Assembly: GCA_022709385.1 (NCBI GenBank)
Contig: JAKLIX010000005.1
Location: forward strand, 124,001-188,000
Direction: 5' to 3'
DNA: 64,000 nucleotides
Origin: Bacteroidota bacterium
GTDB taxonomy: Bacteria > Bacteroidota > Bacteroidia > Bacteroidales > CAIXZF01
Part shown: piece by piece, positions 22,531 to 55,147 of the stretch
How the letters are laid out: every line of letters starts with the position of its first letter
Position numbering within the stretch: position 1 is the first letter of the stretch
Translations under genes and position numbers: made by a program
Notes under the pieces: generated by a model
The model's database searches: none
What the model was told of the DNA's origin: nothing
What the model saw: the letters and a program-made list of their open reading frames with translations, nothing else

Positions 22531-24681
22531 ATGATTAAGCGATTCTTCGTTGTTTTTATCATGCTGCTGCAGGGATTCAGCCATTTGCGGGCTGATGAGG
22601 GGATGTGGCTTCCCCTGCTGATAGACCGCCTGAATTACACCGACATGCAGAAGGCAGGGCTTCGGCTCACGGCCGAAGAGATATACAGCATCAACCATTC
22701 GAGTTTAAAGGATGCCATCGTGCTTTTCGGGCGCGGTTGCACGGGTGAGCTGGTCAGTGCACAGGGACTGCTGTTTACCAACCACCATTGCGGTTACGGC
22801 AGGATTCAGGCACACAGCACGGTGGAGCATGATTACCTGACCGACGGTTTCTGGGCTCTTTCGCTCCATGAAGAACTGCCGAATCCGGGTCTGGAAGTGC
22901 GGATTTTGCTGATGATGGAGAATGTCACCAACAAAATCCTTCCCCTGCTTCCTTCCGGGGCAGGAGAAGAAGCACGGTCGAAAAAGGTCGGTGAGATAGC
23001 CGCCGAACTCGAGAAAAAAGCAAAGAACGGCGTTGATTACCACGAAGCGGTGGTAAAGTCGTTTTTCAACGGGAATGAATACTACCTGTTCCTTTACGAG
23101 GTTTACAAAGATGTCCGCCTGGTGGGTGCCCCGCCCTCTTCCGTCGGCAAGTTCGGCGGCGATACAGATAACTGGATGTGGCCCCGGCATACGGGTGATT
23201 TCTCCATTTTCAGGGTGTACACCGGTCCGGACGGTAAGCCTGCTCCTTACGCCAAAGACAACATTCCCCTGAAACCCAGGCATTTTCTTCCGGTTTCGAT
23301 CAAGGGGGTGGAAAAGAACGATTATGCCATGGTGTACGGTTATCCGGGCAGTACCGACCGTTACCTGACCTCATACGGGGTGAAGCTGGCCATTGAAGAG
23401 ACCAATCCCACCGTGGTGGCCATCCGGGAGAAGCGGCTGGAGATCATCAGGGCGGCCATGAAGGCCGACAAGGCAATCAATATACAGTATGCTTCCAAGT
23501 ATGCGATGATCTCCAATTACTGGAAGTACTTCATCGGTCAGACCAAGGGATTGAAGAGGCTGAAAGTCTATGAAAAGAAACAGGCGCTGGAGGCAGCTTT
23601 TACGGAATGGTACAGTGCGGATCCCGGGCGAAAGGAACGCTACGGAGAGGTATTGGGAGGCATTGCGGCTGCTTATGCTGAGATTGGCAAGGTGGCCAAA
23701 ACACGCATTTATTATACAGAAGGTTTGCTCAGGGGAGCCGAAGCCATCGGGCTTGCCAGAAATTATGTGAGCCTTTACAAACAGTTAAAATCCGGTGACA
23801 AAGCCTTACCGGAGAAGACCCTCAGCGAACTCAGGGAAAAACTGAGCGGCTACTTCAAGGATTACAATGCCTCCGTTGACGAGTCACTTTTCGCCCTGGT
23901 CCTCGGCATTTTCGCCAGGGAAGTGCCTGTTGCCGGCCACCCGGCGATCCTGGCTGAAGTGAACAGGAAATACAAGGGCGATTTCAAAAAATATGCCGCC
24001 GAAGTGTATGCAAAAAGCATCTTCACCAGCAAAGAAAGGCTGACAGCCTTCCTGGACAATCCCCGGGCGAAAGTGCTGGAGAAGGATCCGGTTTTCCGCT
24101 GTGCACAGTCTTTCTCGGAAAGTTATAATCTTCTGAACGACACATACAATGCCGCACAGCAACCGCTTGAAGGGTATGACAGGCTTTTCCTGGCCGGTTT
24201 ACGCGAAATGAACCCGGATAAGAAGTACTATCCTGATGCCAACCAGACCCTGAGGCTCACCTACGGAAAGGTACTGGACTATTTCCCGGCCGATGCCGTA
24301 CACTACGATTTCAAGACCACCCTGGGAGGAGTGATGGAGAAGGAGGAACCCGGAAGCTATGAATTCTCCGTACCGGACAAACTCAAAAGCCTTTATGCGG
24401 CCAAAGATTTCGGCCCCTATGCCTCCAACGGGGAGATCGTCACCTGTTTCATCACCACCAACGACATCACCGGAGGAAACTCGGGCAGCCCGGTGATCAA
24501 CGCCAATGGAGAACTGATCGGGCTGGCCTTCGACGGCAACTGGGAAGCCATGAGCGGCGACATCGCCTTTGAGGAGGAACTGCAGCGTACCATCAACGTG
24601 GATATCCGCTACGTACTCTTCATCATCGATAAGTTTGCCGGAGCGAAAAACCTGATTGACGAGTTAAGCATCCGTCAATAA
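22531..24681 (+). CDS. S46 family serine dipeptidyl peptidase, DPP7-type (hydrophobic P1 specificity)
   Basis: This 716-residue exported protein is a paralogue of the 482-2635 peptidase. The signal peptide covers residues 1-21. The triad residues are His85/86 (TNHHCGYG), Asp223 (RHTGDF) and Ser651 (GGNSGSP). The specificity residue 18 positions after Ser651 is Gly669 (AFDGNWEA), as in P. gingivalis DPP7, so a preference for hydrophobic or aliphatic P1 residues is predicted. Together the two enzymes would cover acidic and hydrophobic peptides in the periplasm. It lies 35 bp after manC and 7 bp before the O-antigen-ligase-like gene, so it is probably co-transcribed with glycan genes rather than with other peptidases. 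Confidence 0.94.
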   Translation: MIKRFFVVFIMLLQGFSHLRADEGMWLPLLIDRLNYTDMQKAGLRLTAEEIYSINHSSLKDAIVLFGRGCTGELVSAQGLLFTNHHCGYGRIQAHSTVEHDYLTDGFWALSLHEELPNPGLEVRILLMMENVTNKILPLLPSGAGEEARSKKVGEIAAELEKKAKNGVDYHEAVVKSFFNGNEYYLFLYEVYKDVRLVGAPPSSVGKFGGDTDNWMWPRHTGDFSIFRVYTGPDGKPAPYAKDNIPLKPRHFLPVSIKGVEKNDYAMVYGYPGSTDRYLTSYGVKLAIEETNPTVVAIREKRLEIIRAAMKADKAINIQYASKYAMISNYWKYFIGQTKGLKRLKVYEKKQALEAAFTEWYSADPGRKERYGEVLGGIAAAYAEIGKVAKTRIYYTEGLLRGAEAIGLARNYVSLYKQLKSGDKALPEKTLSELREKLSGYFKDYNASVDESLFALVLGIFAREVPVAGHPAILAEVNRKYKGDFKKYAAEVYAKSIFTSKERLTAFLDNPRAKVLEKDPVFRCAQSFSESYNLLNDTYNAAQQPLEGYDRLFLAGLREMNPDKKYYPDANQTLRLTYGKVLDYFPADAVHYDFKTTLGGVMEKEEPGSYEFSVPDKLKSLYAAKDFGPYASNGEIVTCFITTNDITGGNSGSPVINANGELIGLAFDGNWEAMSGDIAFEEELQRTINVDIRYVLFIIDKFAGAKNLIDELSIRQ

Positions 24682-38491: not shown

Positions 38492-40441
38492 ATGAAAAAT
38501 CTCCTTCTCACCACCGGCTTCATCCTCCTGCTCAGATCGACATTGATGGCCGGTCCTGTCGAAGACCTGATTAAAAATTCAGGCAATGCGGCCGATTATC
38601 CGGATGCCGCAAGCCTTGTCCTTTTCGACAGTACCCGCGTTGAGGTGATGGAAACCGGCCTGGGCTACTTTCACACCAGGCGGCTTTACAAGGTGCTGAC
38701 TGCGGCGGGAGCCCTGGACCTTTCGGTGGTACGTTACGATTATGACCCCTTGTCGGCCATGGCTGAGATTAAAGCAGTCATTATTTACAGGCAGGACGGT
38801 TCAAGTGTCGCACTCGATCCTTCAAAAGTCATGGACTATCCCGCCCCTGCCCGTGCCATCTACTGGGGCGCCCGGGAGGTGATGCTGGAAGTGGGACGAC
38901 TGGAACCCGGCGATGCCGTGGAAATACGTCTTTTCAAGAAAGGATTTACATACGCCTTGCTGCAAACAGACGATGATGAAAGATTCATTCCCCCGATGCG
39001 GGGCCACTTTTACGATATCGTACCCTTCTGGAACGACCAGCCCGTGCTGGAAAAAGTCTACCAGATCAGCCTGCCCGCTTCCAAACAGGTGACCTACAAG
39101 GTTTATAACGGCACAATGGAAGTGGACGAAAAGATAAGCGACCGTTTCCGGCAGTACACCTTCACGGCCCGAAACCTCATGCCGCTGAAGTCAGAACCTT
39201 CCATGGCTGACAGGTCCGACGTAGCCCTGAAGATGATCCTCACCACCAGTCCCGACTGGGAGTCAAAATCGACCTGGTTTTTCAGGGTGAACGAAGATTA
39301 CGGCAGTTTCCATTCCACTGAAGCGATCAAATTGAAAGTCAATGACATTCTCAGAGGCGCCGTGGACGAAACCGACAGCATCTCACGGCTGACCCACTGG
39401 TGTGCCGACGAGATCCGCTATTCCGGGATTTCCATGGGAAAAGGCGAAGGATATACCCTGCATACCGGCGACATGACTTTTACCGACAGGGCCGGGGTTT
39501 GTAAGGACAAAGCCGGCATGCTGATCACCATGCTCCGGGCGGCCGGTTTTGAATCCTATCCGGCCATGACCATGGCAGGAAGCCGGATCGAAAATATCCC
39601 CGCCGACCATTTTAACCACTGTGTAACCGTGGTCAAAAGAAGAGACGGCCGCTACGAACTGCTCGATCCCACCTGGGTGCCCTTCCTGCGCGAGCTCTGG
39701 AGCAGTGCGGAACAACAACAAAACTACCTGATGGGATTGCCAGAGGGGGCCAGCCTGATGGAAACCCCGGTATCCCCTCCGGAAAACCACTGGCTGAAAA
39801 TGCATGCCGTTTCGGAACTCGCAACAGACGGAAGCCTGAAAGGAAGCATCTCGATCAAAGCCGAAGGACAGACCGATGCGGCCATCCGCCGGATGTTCAC
39901 AGGACAATACCGCTCAAAGTGGAAACAACAAATTGAAAAAGAATTACTTAAAATTCACCCCGCCGCAATTTTACTGGACTACGACATGCAGGAGCCCTAT
40001 CACTATTCCGAAGGTCCCTTCCATCTGGAAATCCGTTTTATGATCCCAGGGTTTGCGCTTATCACTGATAAGGAGATCATCATGAAACATCTGCTTACTC
40101 CCGACTTTTTCCGGAATGCGCAGGCTCATCTGAATATTTCCACTGCACCGAAAGAAAGGAAATACCCCTTCCGCGACCGTTGCTCCCGCCTGACCGCACT
40201 GGATCAGACCATCAGGCTTCCGTTCAGGGTGGCAGCTGCCGATATCCCCGTCCCTGAAGCGGTGAACGGAACGCTTGTAAGCTGGCAGGGCAGCATCAAG
40301 GCAAAGGGCAATGAGTTGGTTATGAAACAAAATGCATCTTACGGTCAAAGGATCTATGCACCGGAGCACTGGCCGGATTTCAGACAGGCAGTAATCAACC
40401 AGAAAGAGATGGACGGCTGGATCGTTTTAACAAGGTTGTGA
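38492..40441 (+). CDS. DUF3857 / transglutaminase-like periplasmic protein (active-site triad intact)
   Basis: This 649-residue exported protein (signal peptide 1-20) has an N-terminal DUF3857 domain (residues about 50-220) and a transglutaminase-like cysteine domain (about 285-400) with a complete triad: Cys337 in RAGVCKDKAG, His376 in DHFNHCVTV and Asp392 in ELLDPTWVPF. The remaining C-terminal 240 residues are beta-rich. Proteins of this type are common and multi-copy in Bacteroidetes; proposed activities are peptide or amide bond cleavage or cross-linking, but none is established here. The second DUF3857 gene follows after 117 bp and appears to lack the catalytic Cys. Confidence 0.9.
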   Translation: MKNLLLTTGFILLLRSTLMAGPVEDLIKNSGNAADYPDAASLVLFDSTRVEVMETGLGYFHTRRLYKVLTAAGALDLSVVRYDYDPLSAMAEIKAVIIYRQDGSSVALDPSKVMDYPAPARAIYWGAREVMLEVGRLEPGDAVEIRLFKKGFTYALLQTDDDERFIPPMRGHFYDIVPFWNDQPVLEKVYQISLPASKQVTYKVYNGTMEVDEKISDRFRQYTFTARNLMPLKSEPSMADRSDVALKMILTTSPDWESKSTWFFRVNEDYGSFHSTEAIKLKVNDILRGAVDETDSISRLTHWCADEIRYSGISMGKGEGYTLHTGDMTFTDRAGVCKDKAGMLITMLRAAGFESYPAMTMAGSRIENIPADHFNHCVTVVKRRDGRYELLDPTWVPFLRELWSSAEQQQNYLMGLPEGASLMETPVSPPENHWLKMHAVSELATDGSLKGSISIKAEGQTDAAIRRMFTGQYRSKWKQQIEKELLKIHPAAILLDYDMQEPYHYSEGPFHLEIRFMIPGFALITDKEIIMKHLLTPDFFRNAQAHLNISTAPKERKYPFRDRCSRLTALDQTIRLPFRVAAADIPVPEAVNGTLVSWQGSIKAKGNELVMKQNASYGQRIYAPEHWPDFRQAVINQKEMDGWIVLTRL

Positions 40442-40558
40442 CAGGAGTCCCCCCGCAATCAGCTTTCACCGGGATATCCGGCAATCGAATGCCAGGCTGA
40501 TAACATCAAGCATTTTATTATAAATGGAAATCTGTTTACACTTTTTTATTAACTGCAT

Positions 40559-42397
40559 ATGAATAAATTCCGGTTTTATTTAATGGTTTTGCTGGCAGGG
40601 ATGATGCTCCACGCCAGTATCCCTGTATTGGCAGACGACACAGCCGACGCAGTTTTTGAGCGGGTATTCAAAAAGTACACCCTGCTGGACGACGGCAGTG
40701 TGGAATTTCGCCACCGCAAAGAAGTGAAGCTGTTAAGTCATTTCGCTTTCCACCGTTTATACGGGGAAACCTTTATTGTTTACAATCCCGGGTTCCAGAA
40801 ACTCACCATTAACGAAGCCCATACAGTAATGGCCGACGGGAAAGAGCTCATCACTCCGCCGAATGCCTTTAACGAGGTGTTGCCGAGAATGGCCGAAAAT
40901 GCTGCCTTCGCAAACGGTCTGCGGGAAATGGTGGTAACCCATACCGGGCTTGAAGTGGGTGCCACCATTGTACTTGACTACACCCTTGTAAGCCGGCGGG
41001 GACTCATTCCCTTCTTTATGGGCAGCGAAATCCTTGCCGAACACAGTCCCGTTAAAGACCTGGAGTTCATCATCGAAGTACCCGAAAAGACCAGCCTGAA
41101 TTTCCGTCTCTACCATGCAAGCGCCGTGTCAGATCTTAGAAGGGAAGGCGGTCAGAAGACCTATACCTGGAGGTTCAGCAACCTCCCGGCCCTGCAATCC
41201 GAAGTGATGCAGCCTGATCCTGCGGCTTATGCACCCTGTATTTGTTTCTCCACCTCCTCCGCCTTACACCAGGTTCTGGCGCCATTCATGCTGCAGCAGG
41301 CCTTCCCCCATCCGGCCGATGATCAGATAAAACAGTATGTCGACAGGGTGAACAATCAGGCCCTGTCGCCCCTGCAAAAAGCGCTCAACCTGCAGGAAAA
41401 GATCATCACGGAATTCCGGCTTTTCAGGATTCCTTTGCCTTTGCTTGACTACCAGGTAAGGCCCTCCTGGGAAGTTTTCCGCAGTGCCGGGGGTACCGAT
41501 ATCGAGAAAGCTTTGCTGCTGATGGCTTTCCTCGAACTCGCAGGCATCCGCACGACACTTGCAGCGCAATTCCCGGCGTATTATGACCCGGGAATGGGCA
41601 ATCTCAGCATCATCAGCCAGTATTGCGTACTGGCGAACATCCCCGGTGAAGATCCGGTACTCTTATCCGTTAAAGAAACCCACGACCAGGACTTGCTGTA
41701 CACCCATCCGGGCGGTGCCTGGCTCAGCCTCGATCCGAAAGCCGGTCCCCAGGCCCTGGCTCCGAAAGATCCAGGAGCTTCCATCAGCCTGGACGGAAGG
41801 TTCGAACTTTTTGCCGACCACAGCATGGAAGGCTCCCTCAGCCTTTCCGCCGGCGGGAAGATGAATCCCCGTCTTGCCATAAGCCTCAATCCAAAGGCCG
41901 CAATCAAAGGGATCAAGGGCTTTGTGACTTCTTCCGACCTGAAAGACATCACCACTACCCGGCTTACAGCTCAGATCAGCGAGACGAAAGCACTGACGGG
42001 AAGCAGTAAAAAGTTGTCACCCAAAGCAGAAACCCTTGTGATGGAATGGCCTTATCTGGAAAAAGGCATGGCATCCTGGTCACCCGAAGAATTTTTCAGC
42101 GAAAGAAAAAGTCCTGTATTTCAGCCCCTTGATCTTAGCGAATCCTATCAATATTCGCTTACCCTTCCTGAAGGCAGCATGCTGCTTAATCCGGTAGAAC
42201 GCACCGTTCTGACGAACGAGGCGGGCAAAGTGGTCATCGAATGTAAACAAAAGGGAAACAAAGTATCCTTCAGGAAGGAAATCACCCTGAAACAGAAGGT
42301 GTACAATGATAACCAGGAATCATATTATGCCGGGCTCCGCCAGCTTATAGGCCTCTGGCAGAGTCCGCAGCACAGGCAAAGCCTGATCCGGCCCTGA
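40559..42397 (+). CDS. DUF3857 / transglutaminase-like protein without catalytic cysteine (likely pseudoenzyme)
   Basis: This 612-residue exported protein (signal peptide 1-25, ending VLA) is a divergent paralogue of the upstream protein. It has the DUF3857 domain (about 40-210) and a transglutaminase-like core, but where the paralogue has GVCKDKAGMLI this one reads GGTDIEKALLL: the Cys is replaced and the surrounding motif shifted, and the following His is not preserved in the same context. It is therefore probably not a cysteine enzyme. The frame is intact, which suggests a retained binding or scaffold role, perhaps with the active partner. Both genes are on the same strand and may share a transcript. 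Confidence 0.85.
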   Translation: MNKFRFYLMVLLAGMMLHASIPVLADDTADAVFERVFKKYTLLDDGSVEFRHRKEVKLLSHFAFHRLYGETFIVYNPGFQKLTINEAHTVMADGKELITPPNAFNEVLPRMAENAAFANGLREMVVTHTGLEVGATIVLDYTLVSRRGLIPFFMGSEILAEHSPVKDLEFIIEVPEKTSLNFRLYHASAVSDLRREGGQKTYTWRFSNLPALQSEVMQPDPAAYAPCICFSTSSALHQVLAPFMLQQAFPHPADDQIKQYVDRVNNQALSPLQKALNLQEKIITEFRLFRIPLPLLDYQVRPSWEVFRSAGGTDIEKALLLMAFLELAGIRTTLAAQFPAYYDPGMGNLSIISQYCVLANIPGEDPVLLSVKETHDQDLLYTHPGGAWLSLDPKAGPQALAPKDPGASISLDGRFELFADHSMEGSLSLSAGGKMNPRLAISLNPKAAIKGIKGFVTSSDLKDITTTRLTAQISETKALTGSSKKLSPKAETLVMEWPYLEKGMASWSPEEFFSERKSPVFQPLDLSESYQYSLTLPEGSMLLNPVERTVLTNEAGKVVIECKQKGNKVSFRKEITLKQKVYNDNQESYYAGLRQLIGLWQSPQHRQSLIRP

Positions 42398-46049: not shown

Positions 46050-46083
46050 TTTGGATTAATGCTGAAAATTCTTTTTACCTTTA
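46050..46083 (+). promoter_or_regulatory. Promoter for the receptor / giant cargo / PorV-like operon
   Basis: TTTG at 46050-46053 and TACCTTTA at 46076-46083 resemble the -33 and -7 elements with a 22-bp spacing; the -7 box differs from TAnnTTTG in its last base. The ATG is 47 bp downstream at 46131. Confidence 0.5.
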
Positions 46084-46130: not shown

Positions 46131-49100
46131 ATGTTGCGAAAATTACTACTGACAGTTGGGATCTTGTTTTGTACCAGTGCTTTGGTATTCTCACAATCGG
46201 GAACACTGAAGGGAAAGATCAGGGATGCAGGCACCAAGGAGCCGATTCCATTCGCCAACATTGTGATTGAAGCCGGAGGTACCCAGATCGGAGGTACCAC
46301 ATCAGATTTCGATGGCAACTTCACCATCAAACCCATCACGCCTGGAAAATACGACATGAAAGCCACTTATGTCGGTTATAAGTCAAAAATGATCAAGGGT
46401 GTGGTCATCAATGCCGATAAAATCACCTTCCAGGACATGGAACTTGAGTCGACCACCGTAGCCCTCGACGTAGTGGAAGTGGTTGATTACAAGGTTCCTC
46501 TGATCTCCAAGGATAAGACATCCACGGGAGGGACGGTGACCTCGGAGGAGATCGCCAAAATGCCTAACCGCTCGGCCGACGCTGTGGCCACTACCGTGGG
46601 GGGTGTATTCTCCGCCGACGGGGAAAGGGGAAGCGTCAGGGGTTCCAGAACGGAAGGTACGGTCATGTATATCGACGGGATGAAAGTACGCGGATCCAAC
46701 AACCTTCCGCAATCAGCCATCGAAGAGGTGACGGTGATCACCGGCGGTCTGCCCGCACAGTACGGCGATGCCACCGGTGGTGTAATCAATGTCACCACCA
46801 AAGGCCCTTCACGGCAGTTCGGCGCAGGAGTTGAAGTGGAAACCTCGGAATTCCTCGACAACTATGGGCATAACAGACTGGGAATCAACATGCAGGGACC
46901 GCTGATCAAAAAGCGCAAAGACTCCCTGAACACCCAGGCCATACTCGGTTACTTCATTGCTGCCGATTTCGCTTACAACAGGGACGGAAGGCCTTCTTCC
47001 ATCGATCTTTACAAAGTAAAGGACGATGTGTATGACCGGCTGGTAGCCAACCCGCTTCGCCCTGCCGGCCTGGCCTCCGGAGGTACGTATAAAAATGCCG
47101 ACTTCCTTCGTAAAAACGATCTCGAAATCACCAAAAGCAGCCTGAATACCGAAAACATCGATATTAACCTGTCCGGAAAAATCGACGTGAAAACGACCGC
47201 CACCATCAATCTCACCGTCGGCGGCTCAATGAACTATAACCGTTACAACGCCTATAACTTTGCCGGTTCACTCATGAACTGGAACAACAATGCCCAGGTA
47301 ACCAACAACACCTGGCGCGTGTTTACCCGTTTTACACAGCGTTTCCCCGCCGATAAGGAAAGTAAGTCCATCATCAAGAATGTGTATTATACCTTCCAGG
47401 CCGACTTTACCAAATACAACCAGGTGGTTCAGGATGAAGGGCATAAGGACAAGCTCTTTGATTACGGCTATATCGGAAAATTCACATCTCACAGGGTAAA
47501 AACCTATGAACTGGGCAGCGATACCATTTTTGGTTTCGAGAATGTGTGGCTGCAAACCGGTTACCGCGACACCCTGTTCTGGTTCGAACCTTCCGATAAA
47601 AATCCCGAATTGGCAAACTATACCACTTATTATAGAAATCTTTTTGCCGACCAGATCGAAGACCACCTGGAAAACCCGGTGCAATATGCCCTGGGCGGCG
47701 CCCTGCTGAACGGCGACAATCCCGAATCCATCTATGGCCTCTGGGCTGCCCCGGGCACTCAATACAACGGATACTCAAAAGTGGACAACACCCAGATCGG
47801 TATCAACCTGAATGCATCAGCCGATATCGGCAACCATGCCATCCAGTTCGGTATCCAGTATGAACAGCGGAACGACCGCTATGTGGCCTATGCCCCGGTC
47901 AGCTTCTGGAACCTGATCGATCCGAGAACGGGTATCGTCAACCAGCATATCAGCCAGGCCGGCGATAAACTCAAACCCCTCTACCGCTTCGACGAATTCG
48001 GCGTTTTTCAGGATACCATTGACTATGAGGATCTGATTGACCTTTCCAAACAAAGCTATTTCGATTTCAACCTCAGGAAAAAACTCGGACTTCCGACCGA
48101 CGGCAACCACTGGATCGATGTCGACAGCTACGATCCGGCTCTCTTTACCGTGGATATGTTCTCAGCCGATGAACTCATCCGCGACGGAAGCAACGCCCTG
48201 GTGGCTTATTACGGATTCGACTATACCGGTAAAAAACTCACCAGCAAGCCCAGCCTGTCCGACTTCTTCACCGCCAAAGACGAGTTCGGCAATTACAAAA
48301 GGCAAATCCCCGCCTTCGAACCCATTTATATGGCCGGTTATATCCAGGATAAATTCGCATTCAGCGACCTGATCTTCAATGTCGGTGTGCGTGTCGACCG
48401 TTTCGACGCCAACCAGATGGTGCTCAAAGATCCCTATTTACTCTACGAAGCGAAAACGGTCAAGGAAGTTAAGAATCTCGGCGAACATCCCTCCAATATG
48501 GGCGACGACTTTGTGGTGTATGTGGATAATCCTGCCAGTCCCACCGCCATTAAAGGTTACCGCAGCGGCAGTGTATGGTATACCGCCACCGGTACCGAAA
48601 TTCCTGACCCTGAAGCATACGGACTCGGCACCAATAACCCGCCCTACCTCCTCAACCCCGGCGACAAAGAAGTGAAAATCAGCGCCTTTAAAGACTATGA
48701 ACCGGAAACCAACGTCTTGCCGCGTATCTCCTTCTCCTTCCCGATTTCCGATGAGGCACTGTTCTTTGCTCATTACGACGTATTAACCCAGCGCCCGACC
48801 GGTTTTGTCCGTTTCGACCCCATCGACTACCTGAAACTGGAATACATCGGACAAAACTTTATCAATAATCCCAACCTCAAATCCTCCAAGACCATTGACT
48901 ATGAGGTCGGTTTCATGCAGAAACTCTCCGGATCTTCCTCTCTTAACCTGTCGACCTTCTACCGTGAAATGAGGAACCAAATCCAGGCTTACTTCTTCGC
49001 AGGCGCTTATCCCAAACCCTATTTCTCTTACAACAACATCGACTTCGGAACGGTCAAGGGCTTGATCGTTACCTACGACCTGCGCAGAACCAACAATGCC

Positions 49101-49793
49101 CGTATCCGTGCCAGCTATACCCTCCAGTTTGCCGACGGCACCGGTTCCGACAACGAGTCGGCCCAGGCACTGGTACTGTCGAACGAACCGAAACTGAGGA
49201 ACCTCAGGAGTACCTTCCCGGTTGACTATGACAGAAGACATGCCATCAACCTGGTGTTCGATTACCGCTACGAAGGCGGGCCAAAATACAACGGACCCAC
49301 CATCAGCAAAAGGGTGAAAGGCACAGATAAGAGAAAAACCATCAACCTGCTCGAAAACACGGGGATCAGCGTTACCTTCAACGGAGGATCAGGCACACCC
49401 TACAGCCGTTCGAGCCGTGCCGGTTTCCTCGGAAGCGGAAGCATCCTCATCGGATCGGTCAACGGTTCCCGCCTTCCCTGGCAGTTCAGGATGGACACCC
49501 GTATCGACAAAGACTTTATGCTGTCATTTGGCGGTAAGAACAGTAAGTATGTTTACATGAACGTGTACTTTGAAATCCTCAATGTGCTGAACGCCCAGAA
49601 TATCCTCAGCGTTTACCGGGCTACCGGCAATCCCGACGACGACGGTTACCTGGCTTCTCCCCAGGCGCAACCCGATATCGCCATCAGGACCGACTCACAG
49701 TCCTTTGTCGATCTTTACGAGGTCAGGGTGAATTCACCCGGTAATTACAGCCTTCCCAGAAGGCTAAGACTGGGTGTTGCCATTAATTTCTAA
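46131..49793 (+). CDS. TonB-dependent receptor with N-terminal carboxypeptidase-regulatory-like domain
   Basis: The frame is open from 46029, but the ATG at 46131 (MLRKLLLTVGILFCTSAL) starts a signal peptide ending VFSQ and gives 1220 residues. A carboxypeptidase-regulatory-like domain follows (about 23-105: GTLKGKIRDAGTKEPIPFAN, GNFTIKPITPGKYDM), then a plug domain (about 130-230: RGSRTEGTVMYIDGMKVRG, AQYGDATGGVINVTT), then a long barrel ending RLRLGVAINF with terminal Phe. The arrangement is that of Oar-like/SusC-like receptors, but I see no SusD partner nearby. Instead a 1379-residue T9SS cargo follows after 14 bp and a PorV-like protein after that. Substrate unknown. Confidence 0.92.
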   Translation: MLRKLLLTVGILFCTSALVFSQSGTLKGKIRDAGTKEPIPFANIVIEAGGTQIGGTTSDFDGNFTIKPITPGKYDMKATYVGYKSKMIKGVVINADKITFQDMELESTTVALDVVEVVDYKVPLISKDKTSTGGTVTSEEIAKMPNRSADAVATTVGGVFSADGERGSVRGSRTEGTVMYIDGMKVRGSNNLPQSAIEEVTVITGGLPAQYGDATGGVINVTTKGPSRQFGAGVEVETSEFLDNYGHNRLGINMQGPLIKKRKDSLNTQAILGYFIAADFAYNRDGRPSSIDLYKVKDDVYDRLVANPLRPAGLASGGTYKNADFLRKNDLEITKSSLNTENIDINLSGKIDVKTTATINLTVGGSMNYNRYNAYNFAGSLMNWNNNAQVTNNTWRVFTRFTQRFPADKESKSIIKNVYYTFQADFTKYNQVVQDEGHKDKLFDYGYIGKFTSHRVKTYELGSDTIFGFENVWLQTGYRDTLFWFEPSDKNPELANYTTYYRNLFADQIEDHLENPVQYALGGALLNGDNPESIYGLWAAPGTQYNGYSKVDNTQIGINLNASADIGNHAIQFGIQYEQRNDRYVAYAPVSFWNLIDPRTGIVNQHISQAGDKLKPLYRFDEFGVFQDTIDYEDLIDLSKQSYFDFNLRKKLGLPTDGNHWIDVDSYDPALFTVDMFSADELIRDGSNALVAYYGFDYTGKKLTSKPSLSDFFTAKDEFGNYKRQIPAFEPIYMAGYIQDKFAFSDLIFNVGVRVDRFDANQMVLKDPYLLYEAKTVKEVKNLGEHPSNMGDDFVVYVDNPASPTAIKGYRSGSVWYTATGTEIPDPEAYGLGTNNPPYLLNPGDKEVKISAFKDYEPETNVLPRISFSFPISDEALFFAHYDVLTQRPTGFVRFDPIDYLKLEYIGQNFINNPNLKSSKTIDYEVGFMQKLSGSSSLNLSTFYREMRNQIQAYFFAGAYPKPYFSYNNIDFGTVKGLIVTYDLRRTNNARIRASYTLQFADGTGSDNESAQALVLSNEPKLRNLRSTFPVDYDRRHAINLVFDYRYEGGPKYNGPTISKRVKGTDKRKTINLLENTGISVTFNGGSGTPYSRSSRAGFLGSGSILIGSVNGSRLPWQFRMDTRIDKDFMLSFGGKNSKYVYMNVYFEILNVLNAQNILSVYRATGNPDDDGYLASPQAQPDIAIRTDSQSFVDLYEVRVNSPGNYSLPRRLRLGVAINF

Positions 49794-49807
49794 GAATTTA
49801 AAAAACA

Positions 49808-52800
49808 ATGAATATGAAAAGTGCAGTCCGCTTATTAATCGTGTTGTTTATTGGACTCCTGCTGGCCGATGCCGCTTTCGCCTATAAGCATGTCACTCCC
49901 AAGAGCAAACAGCAGATACCCAAGGGAACAACGGCCGGATGTGCCGCCGGTGCTTCCTTTACCGACCTTTGGGTCAACAATGTCCGCTGCCGTATCAATA
50001 CCGGCGGGGATATGTGGTGGGACCTCCAGGGGGTGGCCAAATACTTTATCCCCGGAAATACGCAAAAAACCTCCATGTTCTCCGCTGCTTTGTGGATCGG
50101 GGGTCTGGACGTGAACGGTCAGCTCAAACTGGCAGCACAGCGTTACCGCGGTAACGGAAATGATTACTGGCCGGGCCCTCTGACCACAGACGGCAATGCC
50201 AATATCTCCGCTGAGGTCTGTAACGAATACGACCGTATTTTCCGCATACACAAGGCAGATGTGGATGCTTTCCGCCGCTGGTGGAACGACAAACCTTCCT
50301 ATCCCGACTATCAAATCCCGGAGTCCATCCTGAAATGGCCCGGCAACGGCGATATCACCAAGGGACAAAGCCCCTACCTGGCGCCTTTTTACGATCATCC
50401 CCCGAAAAACGGCGTGTATGATCCTGAAAATGACGGGGACTATCCATACTATGACTTCAGCAATGAACTCTGCAAGGCCAACGCTCCCACGCCTGAAACC
50501 GTGGAAGGCATCGTCAAGGGCGGCATTCTGGCCGACCAGGTCCTGAAGGGCGATGAAACCCTCTGGTGGGTGTTCAACGACAAAGGAAATATCCACAGCG
50601 AAACCCAGGGCAGCCCCGTCGGCTTCGAAATCCGCGCCCAGGCCTTCGGATTCAGCACCAACGATGAGATCAACAGTATGACCTTCTATTCATACGAAAT
50701 CATCAACCGCTCCACCTACCGGCTTACCGAAACCTATTTCAGCCAGTGGGTCGATACCGACCTTGGATATGCCTGGGACGATTATGTAGGCTGTGATGTA
50801 CAGAGAGGGCTCGGTTACTGCTACAATGGCCGTGCCATCGACGGATCAGGCAAAGATGACGAATACGGCACCCAGCCTCCCGCCGTCGGCGTGGACTTCT
50901 TCCAGGGACCCTATATGGATCCCGACGGGCTCGACAACCCGAAAATCGGTCCTGACGGGCAACCCATGTGTGATGTCAGCATCAATGGCGTGAACTTCGG
51001 CGATTCTATCATCGACAACGAACGTTTCGGTATGCGCCGCTTCGTTTACCACACCAATTGTAATTCCGGTCCTACCTGCGACCCCGACAATGCTCCCGAG
51101 TATTACAACCTGCTCAGGGGAATCTGGAAAGACGGCATCAAGATGATTTACGGAGGAAATGCCCACCCGAATTCTCCGGGCGCTAACGGCCCTCCCTGCG
51201 ACTTTATGTTCCCCGAACTCTCCGACCCCTGTAACTGGGGTACCGCCGGAATCCAGCCGGCTGGTTTCCAGACAGGCGCCGGCGGAACAGGTATCATCTG
51301 GACGGAAGCCAATGTGGGGAACCCTCCCGACGACAGACGTTTTATGCACTCCGCCGGTCCTTTTACCCTTGAACCGGGAGCCGTAAACTATATCACCGTC
51401 GGTATTCCCTGGGCAAGGGCTTCATCCGGTGGCCCCTGGGCCTCAGTGCAAGAACTCAGACGCGTGGACGACAAATGCCAGAAACTCTTCGAAAATTGCT
51501 TCAAAGTCCTTGAAGGTCCCGACCATCCCGATCTCATCGTGCAGGAACTCGACAGGGAAATCCTGCTCTACCTGAAAAATTACACCGGATCGAGCAATGA
51601 ATTCGAAACCTATGAAGAAATCGATCCCAATATCATCACCCCCGACAGCCTTACCATCGTGAACGGCGATTCGATCTATGTACCTCCCGTGATCCAGTGG
51701 GATCCCGTGTACCGTTTCGAAGGATACCAGATCTTCCAGCTGAAAAATGCCAATGTGACCGATCTTACCGATCCGGACGAAGCCAGGCAGGTCGCCCAAT
51801 GCGATATCAAGAACGGTGTCCTCACCCTGATCAACTTCGAATACAACCAGGAACTCCAGGCTAACGTACCGGTGAAAATGGTAGACGGAACCGACAGGGG
51901 AATTCTGCATTCCTTTAAAATTCTGGAAGACCAGTTTGCTTCCGGTGACAAACGGCTGGTGAACCATAAACAGTACTACTTCGTTGCCGTGGCTTACGCG
52001 CACAACAACTACCTCACCTACAGCCAGGATCCCAATGATGCCAACGGGCTGCACGGTCAGAAATTCCCCTACCTGATCGGGCGTAAACAACCTAAAATAC
52101 AAACAGCCATCCCCCATATTCCCAACCCGGAGGCCAGTGGTACCAATCCACTTACAACTTACGGCGACGGTCCCAAGATCACCAGGATCGAAGGCCAGGG
52201 CAATGGCGGCATGTCGCTGGAATGGACCAGAGAAAGCGAAGAGGCGCTGCTCAAAATCACCTCACCTCCCTTTATCGTGAAAAATCCGACCTATGAAAAC
52301 GGCAAAGGCCCGGTGAATGTAAAGGTGATTGATCCGCTCAATGTAGAGAAAGGCAATTATGTGCTGAAGCTGATCCCCGAAAACGGAACCAGCATCGGCA
52401 CTGCAAGCTGGGAACTGACCAACACGCTCACTGGAGAGGTGTACACTTCCGACCGCAACATTTCGGTTGAGAATGAACAACTGCTGCTCGATATCGGTCT
52501 CTCGCTGCAGATAACACAGGTGGCGCCCCCGGGTAATGCCAGCGCAAAGACCAACGGCTATATCGAATCATCCATCACCTTTGCCGACAGCTCTCAAATC
52601 TGGCTCACCGGGATTTCCGACATCGATGTCTGCGGTCCTTGGAACTGGATACGTTCGGGTGTACTGGCCGACCCGAACAATACAGCCTGCAATGACTGGG
52701 ACCTGACGGGTAATTCACAAAGCCCCGGAGTTGCCTTTGACCCCAACGAGGATTACGAAAAAACCGTCGGACGTACCTGGGCCCCTTACAACCTGGTTTC

Positions 52801-53947
52801 GCTGAACAACCAGGATGAAGCCGGGCCCGGCCTGAACAGGCCTTCAAAACTGAAGTTTCAAATGTCGCAACTTGCCAGTATCAACGTGGTGATTACCTCC
52901 GACAAATCGAAATGGACCCGTTGTCCCGTCATCGAGATGTGCCCGGATAAGAACCTTTCACAGGGCGGTGCAGAACGCTTCGACATCAGGAAAGCACCCT
53001 CGGTGGACAAGAACGGGAATCCTTCTTCCACTACAGAACCATCTACCAATCAGAATGATCCCAACTTCATCAGCGGAACCGGCATGGGTTGGTTCCCCGG
53101 CTATGCATATAACCTGGAGACGGGCGAAAGACTGAATATGATGTTCGGCGAAGATTCATGGCTGGTGGCTGAAAACGGCCGCGACATGATCTGGAACCCG
53201 ACCGACATCGATCCCGCCAACCCTTTCCTCAGCCCGCACTTCCTCAGTCCGCTCGGCAGGGTGGTCTTCGGAGGCAAACACTATGTCTATATCATGGCTC
53301 ACACTTACAACGTGGAGCCCGGATATCCCGAACTCGACTGCCCGGCCTATGATTTCGGACAGTGGTCAAGGAACCTGATCCCCGATGTCAATTACAGAAT
53401 CTATGGATACTCCAACGCCATGTGGGTGAATATTCCCATGGCCGTTACCGGTAAAGAATGGCTGAACAACGATGCCACCATCCGTATCCGGGTCGGTAAA
53501 CCCTATGCCAGGAATTACAGCATACCGGGCGTCGGGGCCGATAATCCGGTGAACGATAACTGGCCGATGTACACCTTCAATACGGAAGACATCGCCACGG
53601 TGAAAGGAGACAAGAGCGTGGCAAAATCCGCCCTCGACCTGATCAACGTCGTACCCAACCCCTATTACGGATTCTCCAACTATGAAACAGACCAGCTCGA
53701 TAACCGGGTCCGTATTACCAACCTTCCGGAAAAATGTACCATCTCCATCTATACGGTGAACGGAACCCTCGTCAGGCAGATCACCAAGGACGAAGTGAAA
53801 ACATCGGTCGACTGGGATATGAAAAACTATGCAGGTATTCCGATCTCCGGAGGTATTTACCTGCTACATATCAATGCGCCGGGTATCGGTGAGAAAGTGG
53901 TGAAGTGGTTTGGCGTACAACGCCCCGTCGACCTGAATGCTTTCTGA
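49808..53947 (+). CDS. Very large T9SS type A secreted protein (1379 aa)
   Basis: A signal peptide covers residues 1-25. The N-terminal region includes WWDLQGVAKYFIPG and SAALWIGGLDVNGQLK, then YRGNGNDYWPGPL, a pattern I recall from large T9SS proteins of Bacteroidetes and Ignavibacteria. The middle has several beta-rich domains without a family I can name, with Cys-containing loops. The last 95 or so residues (VVPNPYYGF, CTISIYTVNGTLVRQ, ISGGIYLLHI, EKVVKWFGVQ) form a FlgD-like/T9SS sorting domain. It should be exported through T9SS and attached to the surface, with the PorV-like protein encoded 24 bp downstream as a candidate shuttle. Start: ATG at 49808, with a second Met two codons later. 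Confidence 0.88.
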   Translation: MNMKSAVRLLIVLFIGLLLADAAFAYKHVTPKSKQQIPKGTTAGCAAGASFTDLWVNNVRCRINTGGDMWWDLQGVAKYFIPGNTQKTSMFSAALWIGGLDVNGQLKLAAQRYRGNGNDYWPGPLTTDGNANISAEVCNEYDRIFRIHKADVDAFRRWWNDKPSYPDYQIPESILKWPGNGDITKGQSPYLAPFYDHPPKNGVYDPENDGDYPYYDFSNELCKANAPTPETVEGIVKGGILADQVLKGDETLWWVFNDKGNIHSETQGSPVGFEIRAQAFGFSTNDEINSMTFYSYEIINRSTYRLTETYFSQWVDTDLGYAWDDYVGCDVQRGLGYCYNGRAIDGSGKDDEYGTQPPAVGVDFFQGPYMDPDGLDNPKIGPDGQPMCDVSINGVNFGDSIIDNERFGMRRFVYHTNCNSGPTCDPDNAPEYYNLLRGIWKDGIKMIYGGNAHPNSPGANGPPCDFMFPELSDPCNWGTAGIQPAGFQTGAGGTGIIWTEANVGNPPDDRRFMHSAGPFTLEPGAVNYITVGIPWARASSGGPWASVQELRRVDDKCQKLFENCFKVLEGPDHPDLIVQELDREILLYLKNYTGSSNEFETYEEIDPNIITPDSLTIVNGDSIYVPPVIQWDPVYRFEGYQIFQLKNANVTDLTDPDEARQVAQCDIKNGVLTLINFEYNQELQANVPVKMVDGTDRGILHSFKILEDQFASGDKRLVNHKQYYFVAVAYAHNNYLTYSQDPNDANGLHGQKFPYLIGRKQPKIQTAIPHIPNPEASGTNPLTTYGDGPKITRIEGQGNGGMSLEWTRESEEALLKITSPPFIVKNPTYENGKGPVNVKVIDPLNVEKGNYVLKLIPENGTSIGTASWELTNTLTGEVYTSDRNISVENEQLLLDIGLSLQITQVAPPGNASAKTNGYIESSITFADSSQIWLTGISDIDVCGPWNWIRSGVLADPNNTACNDWDLTGNSQSPGVAFDPNEDYEKTVGRTWAPYNLVSLNNQDEAGPGLNRPSKLKFQMSQLASINVVITSDKSKWTRCPVIEMCPDKNLSQGGAERFDIRKAPSVDKNGNPSSTTEPSTNQNDPNFISGTGMGWFPGYAYNLETGERLNMMFGEDSWLVAENGRDMIWNPTDIDPANPFLSPHFLSPLGRVVFGGKHYVYIMAHTYNVEPGYPELDCPAYDFGQWSRNLIPDVNYRIYGYSNAMWVNIPMAVTGKEWLNNDATIRIRVGKPYARNYSIPGVGADNPVNDNWPMYTFNTEDIATVKGDKSVAKSALDLINVVPNPYYGFSNYETDQLDNRVRITNLPEKCTISIYTVNGTLVRQITKDEVKTSVDWDMKNYAGIPISGGIYLLHINAPGIGEKVVKWFGVQRPVDLNAF

Positions 53948-53971
53948 TCTGAACCATACATTTACAAAAAA

Positions 53972-55069
53972 ATGATTGCTAACATCAAAACATACAGGAC
54001 GATGAAAAATACATTCAGCCAATGCTTTATACTCCTCTTTGTGGCAGCGTGCCTGACTGGCGGGAATCCGGCCTTTGCCGGCAACAAGGACCGTTCCGGT
54101 TCGGCCGGTGCAAGCGAACTGCTGATCAATCCCTGGCCCAGAAGTACGGGCTGGGGCGGAGCCAACGTTGCCAATGTGCACGGCATTGAAGCCATGTTCG
54201 GAAATGTGGCCGGCACCGCTTTCACCAGGAAATCAGAGTTTGCATTCGCCCATACCCAGTGGTTCAAGGGCTCTGACGTGACCCTGAATACCTTCGGATT
54301 CACGCAGAAAGTCGGTGAAGCAGGCGCCCTCGGCCTTTCCATTATGTCGATGCGCTTCGGCGAAATCGAAAAAACTACCGTCGAAAGCCCCGATCCTTCC
54401 CTGGGAAGTATCGGAACCTTCACCCCCAGCTTCCTGAACATCAATCTCTCTTACGCCAAAGCATTCTCCAATGCCATTTACGGCGGACTGAACGTGAAAA
54501 TCATCAACGAAGCCATCGCCGATGTGTCTGCCCAGGGTATCGCCCTTGATGCCGGGATCCAGTATGTAACAGGCGACAATGAAGAAATCAAATTCGGAAT
54601 CGCCCTGAAAAATGTCGGACCCACCATGAAGTTCAAGGGCGACGGAATGTCATTCAGGGGATTCATACCCGGCTTTGAAACCCAGTCGACCATCGAACAA
54701 CGTTCCCAGGCGTTTGAACTGCCCGCACAATTGAATATTGGCGCCTCATACGACTTTAAATTCTCGGACATCCATAAACTCATCCTGGCCGGTTCTTTTA
54801 CTTCCAACTCCTTCTCCAAAGACCAGTTCGGCATCGGCGCCGAGTATTCCTTCCGCGAATACCTGCTGCTGAGAGCCGGATACACATATGAAGAAGGTAT
54901 CACCGAGAAAAAGAACAGAACTACTGCCTACACCGGCCCCAGTGCAGGCCTCTCAGTCGATATTCCCCTGAACAGGGAAAAAGGCTCCTCCTTCTCTGTG
55001 GATTATTCTTACAGGGATACTGATCCTTTCTCCGGTACCCACACCATCGGCGTCAGGATTACATTATAA
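53972..55069 (+). CDS. PorV/PorQ-family outer-membrane barrel
   Basis: This 365-residue protein (355 if the second ATG at 54002, MKNTFSQCFILLFVAACL, is used) has a signal peptide and the PorV/PorQ N-terminal motif GSAGASELLINPWPRSTGWG with ANVANVHGIEAMFGN, followed by FadL-like barrel strands and a C-terminal ...HTIGVRITL. PorV carries sorting-domain cargo from the T9SS translocon to the attachment complex. A PorV-like gene placed directly after one giant cargo and its receptor suggests a dedicated shuttle; that is inference. The upstream sequence is A-rich (ACAAAAAAATG) before 53972, as is common at Bacteroidetes starts. Confidence 0.88.
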   Translation: MIANIKTYRTMKNTFSQCFILLFVAACLTGGNPAFAGNKDRSGSAGASELLINPWPRSTGWGGANVANVHGIEAMFGNVAGTAFTRKSEFAFAHTQWFKGSDVTLNTFGFTQKVGEAGALGLSIMSMRFGEIEKTTVESPDPSLGSIGTFTPSFLNINLSYAKAFSNAIYGGLNVKIINEAIADVSAQGIALDAGIQYVTGDNEEIKFGIALKNVGPTMKFKGDGMSFRGFIPGFETQSTIEQRSQAFELPAQLNIGASYDFKFSDIHKLILAGSFTSNSFSKDQFGIGAEYSFREYLLLRAGYTYEEGITEKKNRTTAYTGPSAGLSVDIPLNREKGSSFSVDYSYRDTDPFSGTHTIGVRITL

Positions 55070-55101: not shown

Positions 55102-55107
55102 TAGGTG

Positions 55108-55147
55108 AGAAGACCCTTGAAAGAGGGTCTTCTTGATTTTTTGTTTT
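55108..55147 (+). terminator. Intrinsic terminator-like hairpin in the greA leader
   Basis: AGAAGACCCT (55108-55117) pairs perfectly with AGGGTCTTCT (55124-55133) around a 6-nt loop TGAAAG, followed by TGATTTTTTGTTTT. It could end transcription of the upstream cassette, whose stop lies 38 bp earlier. It also lies just downstream of the greA promoter, so transcripts from that promoter must read through it to reach greA. Confidence 0.75.

Follow-up and report, generated by a model that had tools for sequence, protein, structure and literature searches.

A widely conserved cassette of a TonB-dependent receptor, a T9SS cargo and a PorV-family barrel in Bacteroidota and other phyla

Organization of the Locus

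The window analyzed is a stretch of 64,000 nucleotides of contig JAKLIX010000005.1 from a Bacteroidota bacterium (Bacteroidales), whose genome comprises 4.08 Mb on 32 contigs. At positions 46131-55069 of the forward strand, a gene for a TonB-dependent receptor is followed by genes for a 1379-aa cargo of the type IX secretion system (T9SS) and for a PorV-family outer-membrane barrel (Table 1). The coordinates, the common strand and the intergenic gaps of 14 bp (receptor-cargo) and 24 bp (cargo-barrel) reported by the first-pass annotation all proved right; the PorV-like gene also has an alternative ATG at 54002 with a better signal peptide behind it, from which the second gap would be 54 bp. 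As to the promoter claimed in front of the first gene, the leader carries a Bacteroidota-type site, and a sigma-70 scan of the leader returned no match. Because this pattern is only mildly enriched in the window (four matches versus 1.55 expected), the site is suggestive only.

An Rfam scan of the window gave no match, and no glycan genes adjoin the trio. Elsewhere in the window lie two alike large peptidase-like proteins (482-2635 and 22531-24681, S46-like by eye) and two neighboring large secreted proteins with a transglutaminase-type look (38492-42397, DUF3857-like by eye).

Table 1. Features of the cassette, in coordinates of the window.
Feature	Position	Strand	Remarks
Promoter-like Bacteroidota-type site TTTG-N22-TAccTTTA	46050..46083	+	~48 bp upstream of receptor ATG
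TonB-dependent receptor, gene 1, 1220 aa	46131..49793	+	ATG 46131 to stop 49793
CarboxypepD_reg-like N-terminal domain of receptor, aa 26-117	46206..46481	+	PF13715, 8.7e-16
TonB-box-like segment ALDVVEVVDYKVPLI between receptor N-domain and plug	46461..46505	+	Putative assignment
Plug domain of receptor, aa 135-218	46533..46784	+	PF07715, 1.4e-8, 35.6 bits (cut-off 23.9)
Cargo, gene 2, 1379 aa, Sec signal peptide by eye	49808..53947	+	
N-terminal region of cargo, aa 46-567, with beta-supersandwich and linker helix	49943..51508	+	AF2 model
Ig-like T9SS C-terminal domain (CTD) of cargo, aa 1269-1371	53612..53920	+	Nearest: uncleaved CTDs of PorZ, PorU
Conserved lysine K1366, last CTD strand	53903..53905	+	Nearly invariant in relatives
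Eight-residue extension RPVDLNAF at cargo C-terminus	53921..53944	+	Nearly fixed length in cassette clade
PorV-family outer-membrane barrel, gene 3, 365 aa	53972..55069	+	NF033709; PorV 6h3i; tree clade
Terminator-like intrinsic hairpin, closes transcription unit	55106..55135	+	13 pairs (13 bp), then T-run ATTTTTTGTT

The Receptor

The product of gene 1 is identified as a TonB-dependent receptor by a Plug domain scoring above the family cut-off, and its N-terminal domain resembles those of the TonB-dependent receptor 6ytc and the SusC homologue 9hfj. Since no SusC subfamily profile matched the receptor and no SusD match was found in the next gene, the pair does not fall within the SusC/RagA group. 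Cassette receptors share an alike hydrophobic stretch followed by P-L-[IV] at the position of the TonB-box-like segment, and almost all cassettes have an orthologous receptor 5′ of the cargo. In two other genomes, the cassette receptor gene is split or interrupted by stop codons (G446:C1:4081718-4084760 and G465:C1:583149-586214), owing to sequencing error or decay.

The carboxypeptidase-like N-domain, the plug and the constant association with a single secreted protein would also fit a helper of secretion analogous to Oar of Myxococcus xanthus, in which TonB energy would place, release or move the cargo; a TonB-dependent transporter required for protein secretion is known (PMC6434023). However, CTD proteins are already exported by SprA, its own motor included, and a helper function of the receptor is considered quite unlikely.

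The Cargo and Its C-Terminal Domain

The cargo was modeled by AF2 over residues 24-760 (pLDDT 76) and, separately, over its CTD (pLDDT 80). In the first model, the N-terminal region resembles the N-terminal domain and linker helix of GH15/GH65/GH94/GH116 enzymes, with the supersandwich that typifies the N-domain of GH15/65/94. VIA-align superimposed this region on 9ju0 with a Z-score of 19.9 over 251 aa at 3.2 Å and about 10-11% identity, and the best Foldseek E-value among the matches listed was 1.5e-4. With regard to the catalytic (alpha/alpha)6 barrel of GH15/65/94 enzymes, the model is mostly strands beyond the linker helix, and it ends before residues 761-1244. On the strength of this predicted fold, a sugar-binding role for the N-domain may be offered as a reasonable guess. 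The cargo body matches neither PorZ nor PorU. Two paralogues of the N-domain, of 686 and 699 aa counted from the first start codon, are encoded in the same genome (L047:8788-10848 and L048:12987-15086), both with ordinary type A ends and without a private barrel or receptor; no second protein in this genome carries the CTD of the cargo.

The sorting domain attributed to the cargo escapes the generic profiles, with 19.3 bits against a cut-off of 23 for TIGR04183 and 16.3 against 27 for PF18962, though a T9SS CTD is supported by its fold and by the profile nearest to it, that of PorZ; the type B CTD profile TIGR04131 found no match in the cargo. Profile NF052228 (PorZ) was matched by 29 of 30 cargos versus 22 of 30 for the generic type A model, the window cargo aligning with it at the CTD of PorZ, which is also the only PDB sequence match of the cargo CTD. 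Among structural matches of the CTD model, PorZ ranked best with a Z-score of 11.3, versus 7.6-8.3 for cleaved type A CTDs (mirolase 8.3, RemA 7.6), and PorU reached 9.2, level with unrelated chains. The domain has the Ig-like beta-sandwich and the last-strand lysine of type A CTDs, and K1366 is taken as the counterpart of the conserved type A lysine described in PMC10994853 and PMC11285876. Published work describes that loops of PorV hold the CTD within SprA and touch one conserved lysine (PMC10994853), and that the CTDs of PorZ and PorU are uncleaved and remain bound to PorQ and PorV, respectively (PMC10202324, PMC11285876). It is mainly because the cargo CTD lies nearest to these two, whose CTDs stay on, that an uncut, barrel-anchored cargo is proposed here.

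The C-Terminal Extension

Past the CTD, the cargo ends in eight further residues, which were predicted with low confidence in the AF2 model. When 166 distinct relatives of the cargo whose C-termini are intact were aligned, 114 had a PorV-family gene directly 3′, and the conserved lysine was followed by 13 residues in 110 of these, by 12 in one and by five in three, the latter belonging to a second type of cassette (see below). A tail of 12-13 residues after the lysine is thus present in 111 of 111 window-type cassettes and is rare elsewhere, and its final residue is hydrophobic throughout, mostly F or Y. Among the 45 relatives that had no downstream PorV-family gene despite room for one, 32 had a short end and 13 a long one. 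The association of tail and adjacent PorV (Fisher P ~1e-19) is overstated by this value because the rows are related; the tail may go back to a single origin and subsequent inheritance, which means that the counts are not independent. Of 137 further CTD proteins encoded at these loci, 101 end exactly at the canonical position, and the longer ones mostly contain long loops rather than tails.

The tailed orphan cargos without a neighboring PorV are a counterpoint to a dedicated shuttle. For several of them, an identical or nearly identical tail occurs in a cassette of the same genome (for example L129/L124, L130/L144, L189/L100), and orphan type B cargos likewise use one common shuttle (PMC12618676). 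Separately, tandem rows of three to five cargo-like genes without PorV neighbors were seen at four loci (L106, L161, L185 and L200), mostly with short ends; the copies at L106 have odd 13-residue ends of the IGGAGISVQ type.

The PorV-Family Barrel

Gene 3 scores 158.5 bits against the PorV/PorQ family profile NF033709 (positions 3-325, cut-off 90) and finds PorV 6h3i by phmmer at 9.7e-5, in agreement with its original description as a PorV/PorQ-like barrel. It remains below the cut-offs of the individual equivalogs, namely classical PorV (NF033710, 69.8 bits, cut-off 250), PorQ (NF033711, 77.5 bits, cut-off 220) and PorV2 (NF052325, 59.6 bits, cut-off 325), and does not adjoin a porU-like gene. 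The PorP/SprF profile TIGR03519 likewise stayed short of its cut-off (21.9 of 90.55 bits), while PF11751 (PorP_SprF) came out just above, at 22.9 against 22.3 bits. A tree of 87 members of the PorV family, in which PorQ itself was not placed, unites the window-type barrels from Bacteroidia to Eisenbacteria in one clade (100/100) separate from classical PorV, and the CTD subtype with the distinctive end goes with this clade.

Three PorV-family genes above the cut-off are encoded in the genome of the window: that of the cassette, a classical PorV that follows a PorU-like gene (G000:C1:554390), and a third on a long tree branch (L045:9300-10355 on C12, 165 bits), which adjoins a recF-like gene and is oriented divergently to four consecutive genes for CTD proteins. 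The suggestion that the cassette barrel is a private copy is supported, since it has its own clade, is inherited with the cargos and receptors, and differs from the general PorV.

This joint inheritance is clear. In 92 cross-genome comparisons, the best-hit partners of PorV and of the cargo coincided 55 times, versus 13.3 expected, and mirror-tree distance correlations are 0.72-0.86 among cassette proteins and 0.74-0.86 with PorV. Of the co-evolution of PorV and cargo that had been put forward as a check, joint inheritance is what the data bear out; it accounts for most of the mirror-tree signal, and the partial correlation given the receptor is 0.15 for PorV-CTD, weaker than the 0.40 for PorV and the cargo N-domain. 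The same explanation would serve a neighborhood conserved without functional coupling of its three products, as joint inheritance alone accounts for most of the tree correlation. Such an uncoupled neighborhood is nevertheless highly improbable, given the same order over several phyla, the CTD end type that tracks the PorV clade, and the many genomes with 8-23 PorV-family genes, of which most sampled ones lie in such cassettes.

A weightier question is whether the barrel is a shuttle at all, or whether the general PorV exports the cargo and the cassette barrel, like PorQ, only holds the uncut CTD after handover. The CTD is nearest to that of PorZ, which PorQ holds (PMC10202324), the barrel scores slightly higher as PorQ than as PorV among the equivalogs, and a high-scoring classical-type PorV occurs in the genome of the window and in sampled cassette genomes. 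On the other hand, the cassette barrels constitute their own clade, and type B cargos need the neighboring barrel for secretion itself (PMC12618676). On balance, a mere holder is regarded as unlikely, and a shuttle that also anchors its cargo is preferred.

Distribution of the Cassette

A search of 395 genomes from the phylum recovered relatives of the cargo in 208; some of these relatives match the CTD only. Inspection of 20-kb neighborhoods revealed receptor, cargo and PorV, in this order on the same strand, at nearly all loci that encode a full-length cargo. Where a full-length cargo has this type of C-terminus, the PorV-like gene lies immediately 3′ and the receptor 5′, a minority of orphan copies excepted. 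The trio was seen in Bacteroidia, Rhodothermia (Rhodothermales), Ignavibacteria (Ignavibacteriales), Marinimicrobia, Calditrichota, Zixibacteria and Eisenbacteria, and its order is more than chance because it recurs on one strand across phyla. The first-pass annotation had made its proposal depend on conservation of the trio, and as this extends far beyond the phylum, the proposal does not fall on that ground. The scan of named contigs used a 14-member alignment, and viral contigs contained no relative.

Within the class of the window, a PorV-like orthologue is present in about 200 of 247 genomes (E < 1e-40, hand count). In each of 23 further genomes of this class examined by coordinates only, the cargo CTD and the receptor lie a few kilobases apart on one strand of a single contig. 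Each of these genomes has a single strong match to the receptor, which in G446 is split, and wherever the position of the PorV-like gene was listed, this gene comes next. The class genomes devoid of a PorV-like orthologue are mostly of isolate quality and belong to families f2-f7 and f11-f13, among which the usual model families would appear to be found. The cassette may have gone undescribed because it appears to be missing from the best-studied Bacteroidota families.

That the cassette is widespread in the class and mostly single-copy may be easier to reconcile with a housekeeping role than with the uptake of one nutrient. The same counts, with one strong receptor match in nearly all checked genomes and no substrate genes nearby, would be in keeping with a structural or surface-layer-like unit. 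In such a unit, the cargo would be a core protein of the envelope, and the receptor-like barrel would serve as a scaffold and transport nothing. The retained plug and TonB-box-like stretch, however, suggest live TonB coupling, and a purely structural unit is judged even less probable than a helper of secretion.

Relation to Known Systems

The cassette is real, widely conserved and built of known parts, and its individual features recall several systems. Type A CTDs have been described as all using one PorV, whereas private shuttles have been described as a trait of type B cargos (PMC12618676, PMC9143113). Like the type B pairs SprB-SprF and PG1035-PorP, in which a FadL-type shuttle of the cargo's own is often the product of the next gene downstream and apparently also acts as anchor (PMC12618676, PMC9143113), the cassette has a FadL-type shuttle gene directly downstream of its cargo; unlike them, it combines a PorV/PorQ-family barrel with a type A Ig-fold CTD and a TonB-dependent receptor at the head of the operon. 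With PorZ-PorQ and PorU-PorV of the T9SS attachment complex it shares the nearest CTD fold and the barrel family, but it differs in the cargo body, the additional eight-residue end, the receptor and the scores below equivalog cut-offs.

TonB-dependent transporters with surface lipoproteins, such as SusC-SusD and BtuB-BtuG, are well known (PMC12578637). There too a receptor gene is followed by that of a surface protein, and the CarboxypepD_reg-like N-domain is as in SusC homologues, whereas the partner in the cassette is a T9SS cargo without lipobox, presumably barrel-anchored, and its receptor matches no SusC subfamily. Membership of the trio in the Bacteroidota BAM complex, of which BamG is also FadL-like, was considered and rejected, as BamP, BamM, BamG and BamH differ in kind by their description. 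No description of a receptor-cargo-PorV cassette was found in open-access papers, which upholds, for that literature, the suggestion of an undescribed system.

Proposed Function

The trio is best explained by a PorV-family barrel that is dedicated to shuttling and anchoring a single uncleaved cargo and so displays it next to the receptor; we assign this reading a probability of roughly 0.55. All three products would be exported via Sec, the receptor and the PorV-like protein becoming outer-membrane barrels and the cargo being held in the periplasm, from which it would exit by the shared SprA translocon. The unit is therefore not self-contained, contrary to what had been supposed, because export would still need SprA, for which the genome has one gene (G000:C32, 2656 bits) alongside at least 150 ordinary type A CTD matches. 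The cargo CTD, probably together with the eight-residue extension, would be bound directly by the private barrel and not by the general PorV, and, left uncut, would keep that barrel as its membrane anchor, comparable to PorZ/PorQ, PorU/PorV and the type B cargos with PorP/SprF. The sugar-enzyme-like N-domain could then lie over or beside the receptor as a ligand-binding partner or lid. On this best reading, the putative complex would be a T9SS-built analogue of SusC-SusD or BtuB-BtuG, T9SS parts doing for the receptor what the surface lipoproteins SusD and BtuG do for SusC and BtuB. The anatomy, the conservation, the clade-specific match between PorV type and CTD end and the predicted CTD fold are established, whereas the 'secretion or uptake' role first attributed to the cassette, the direction of transport and the substrate are, like the receptor complex, presumptive.

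A broader and more tentative proposal, which we hold at slightly less than even odds, is that these receptors represent a widespread class in the FCB group whose surface partner is delivered by the T9SS and anchored through its own PorV-family barrel, a CTD subtype with a nearly fixed eight-residue end selecting the barrel; the class would be found in most sampled Bacteroidia families and apparently be absent from cultured model families. Such a cassette would unite the T9SS and TonB-dependent transport in a single unit, carried by most sampled Bacteroidia, that the usual model families seem to be without. The pairing of a private PorV with a CTD ending of its own also offers a natural experiment on how shuttles select their cargos and on uncut CTDs; why some CTDs stay uncut was left unresolved by a recent structural study (PMC11285876).

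A Second Type of Cassette

Sampled genomes outside the class contain 8-23 PorV-family genes, and most of those examined belong to a second type of receptor-cargo-PorV cassette. It resembles the window type in gene order and in a related cargo N-domain but differs in being multi-copy, in the canonical end of its cargo and in a PorV outside the window clade. The cargos comprise 690-1285 aa and have ends such as GKFAIIK with no extension. The tail was accordingly rejected as a requirement for any private PorV, because these cassettes have such a barrel without it. Examples in non-Bacteroidia classes, several per genome, are L225-L230, L240-L244 and L255-L261, and pairs of a TonB-dependent receptor and a PorV with no recognized cargo in between were observed at L226 and L253, with L263 alike.
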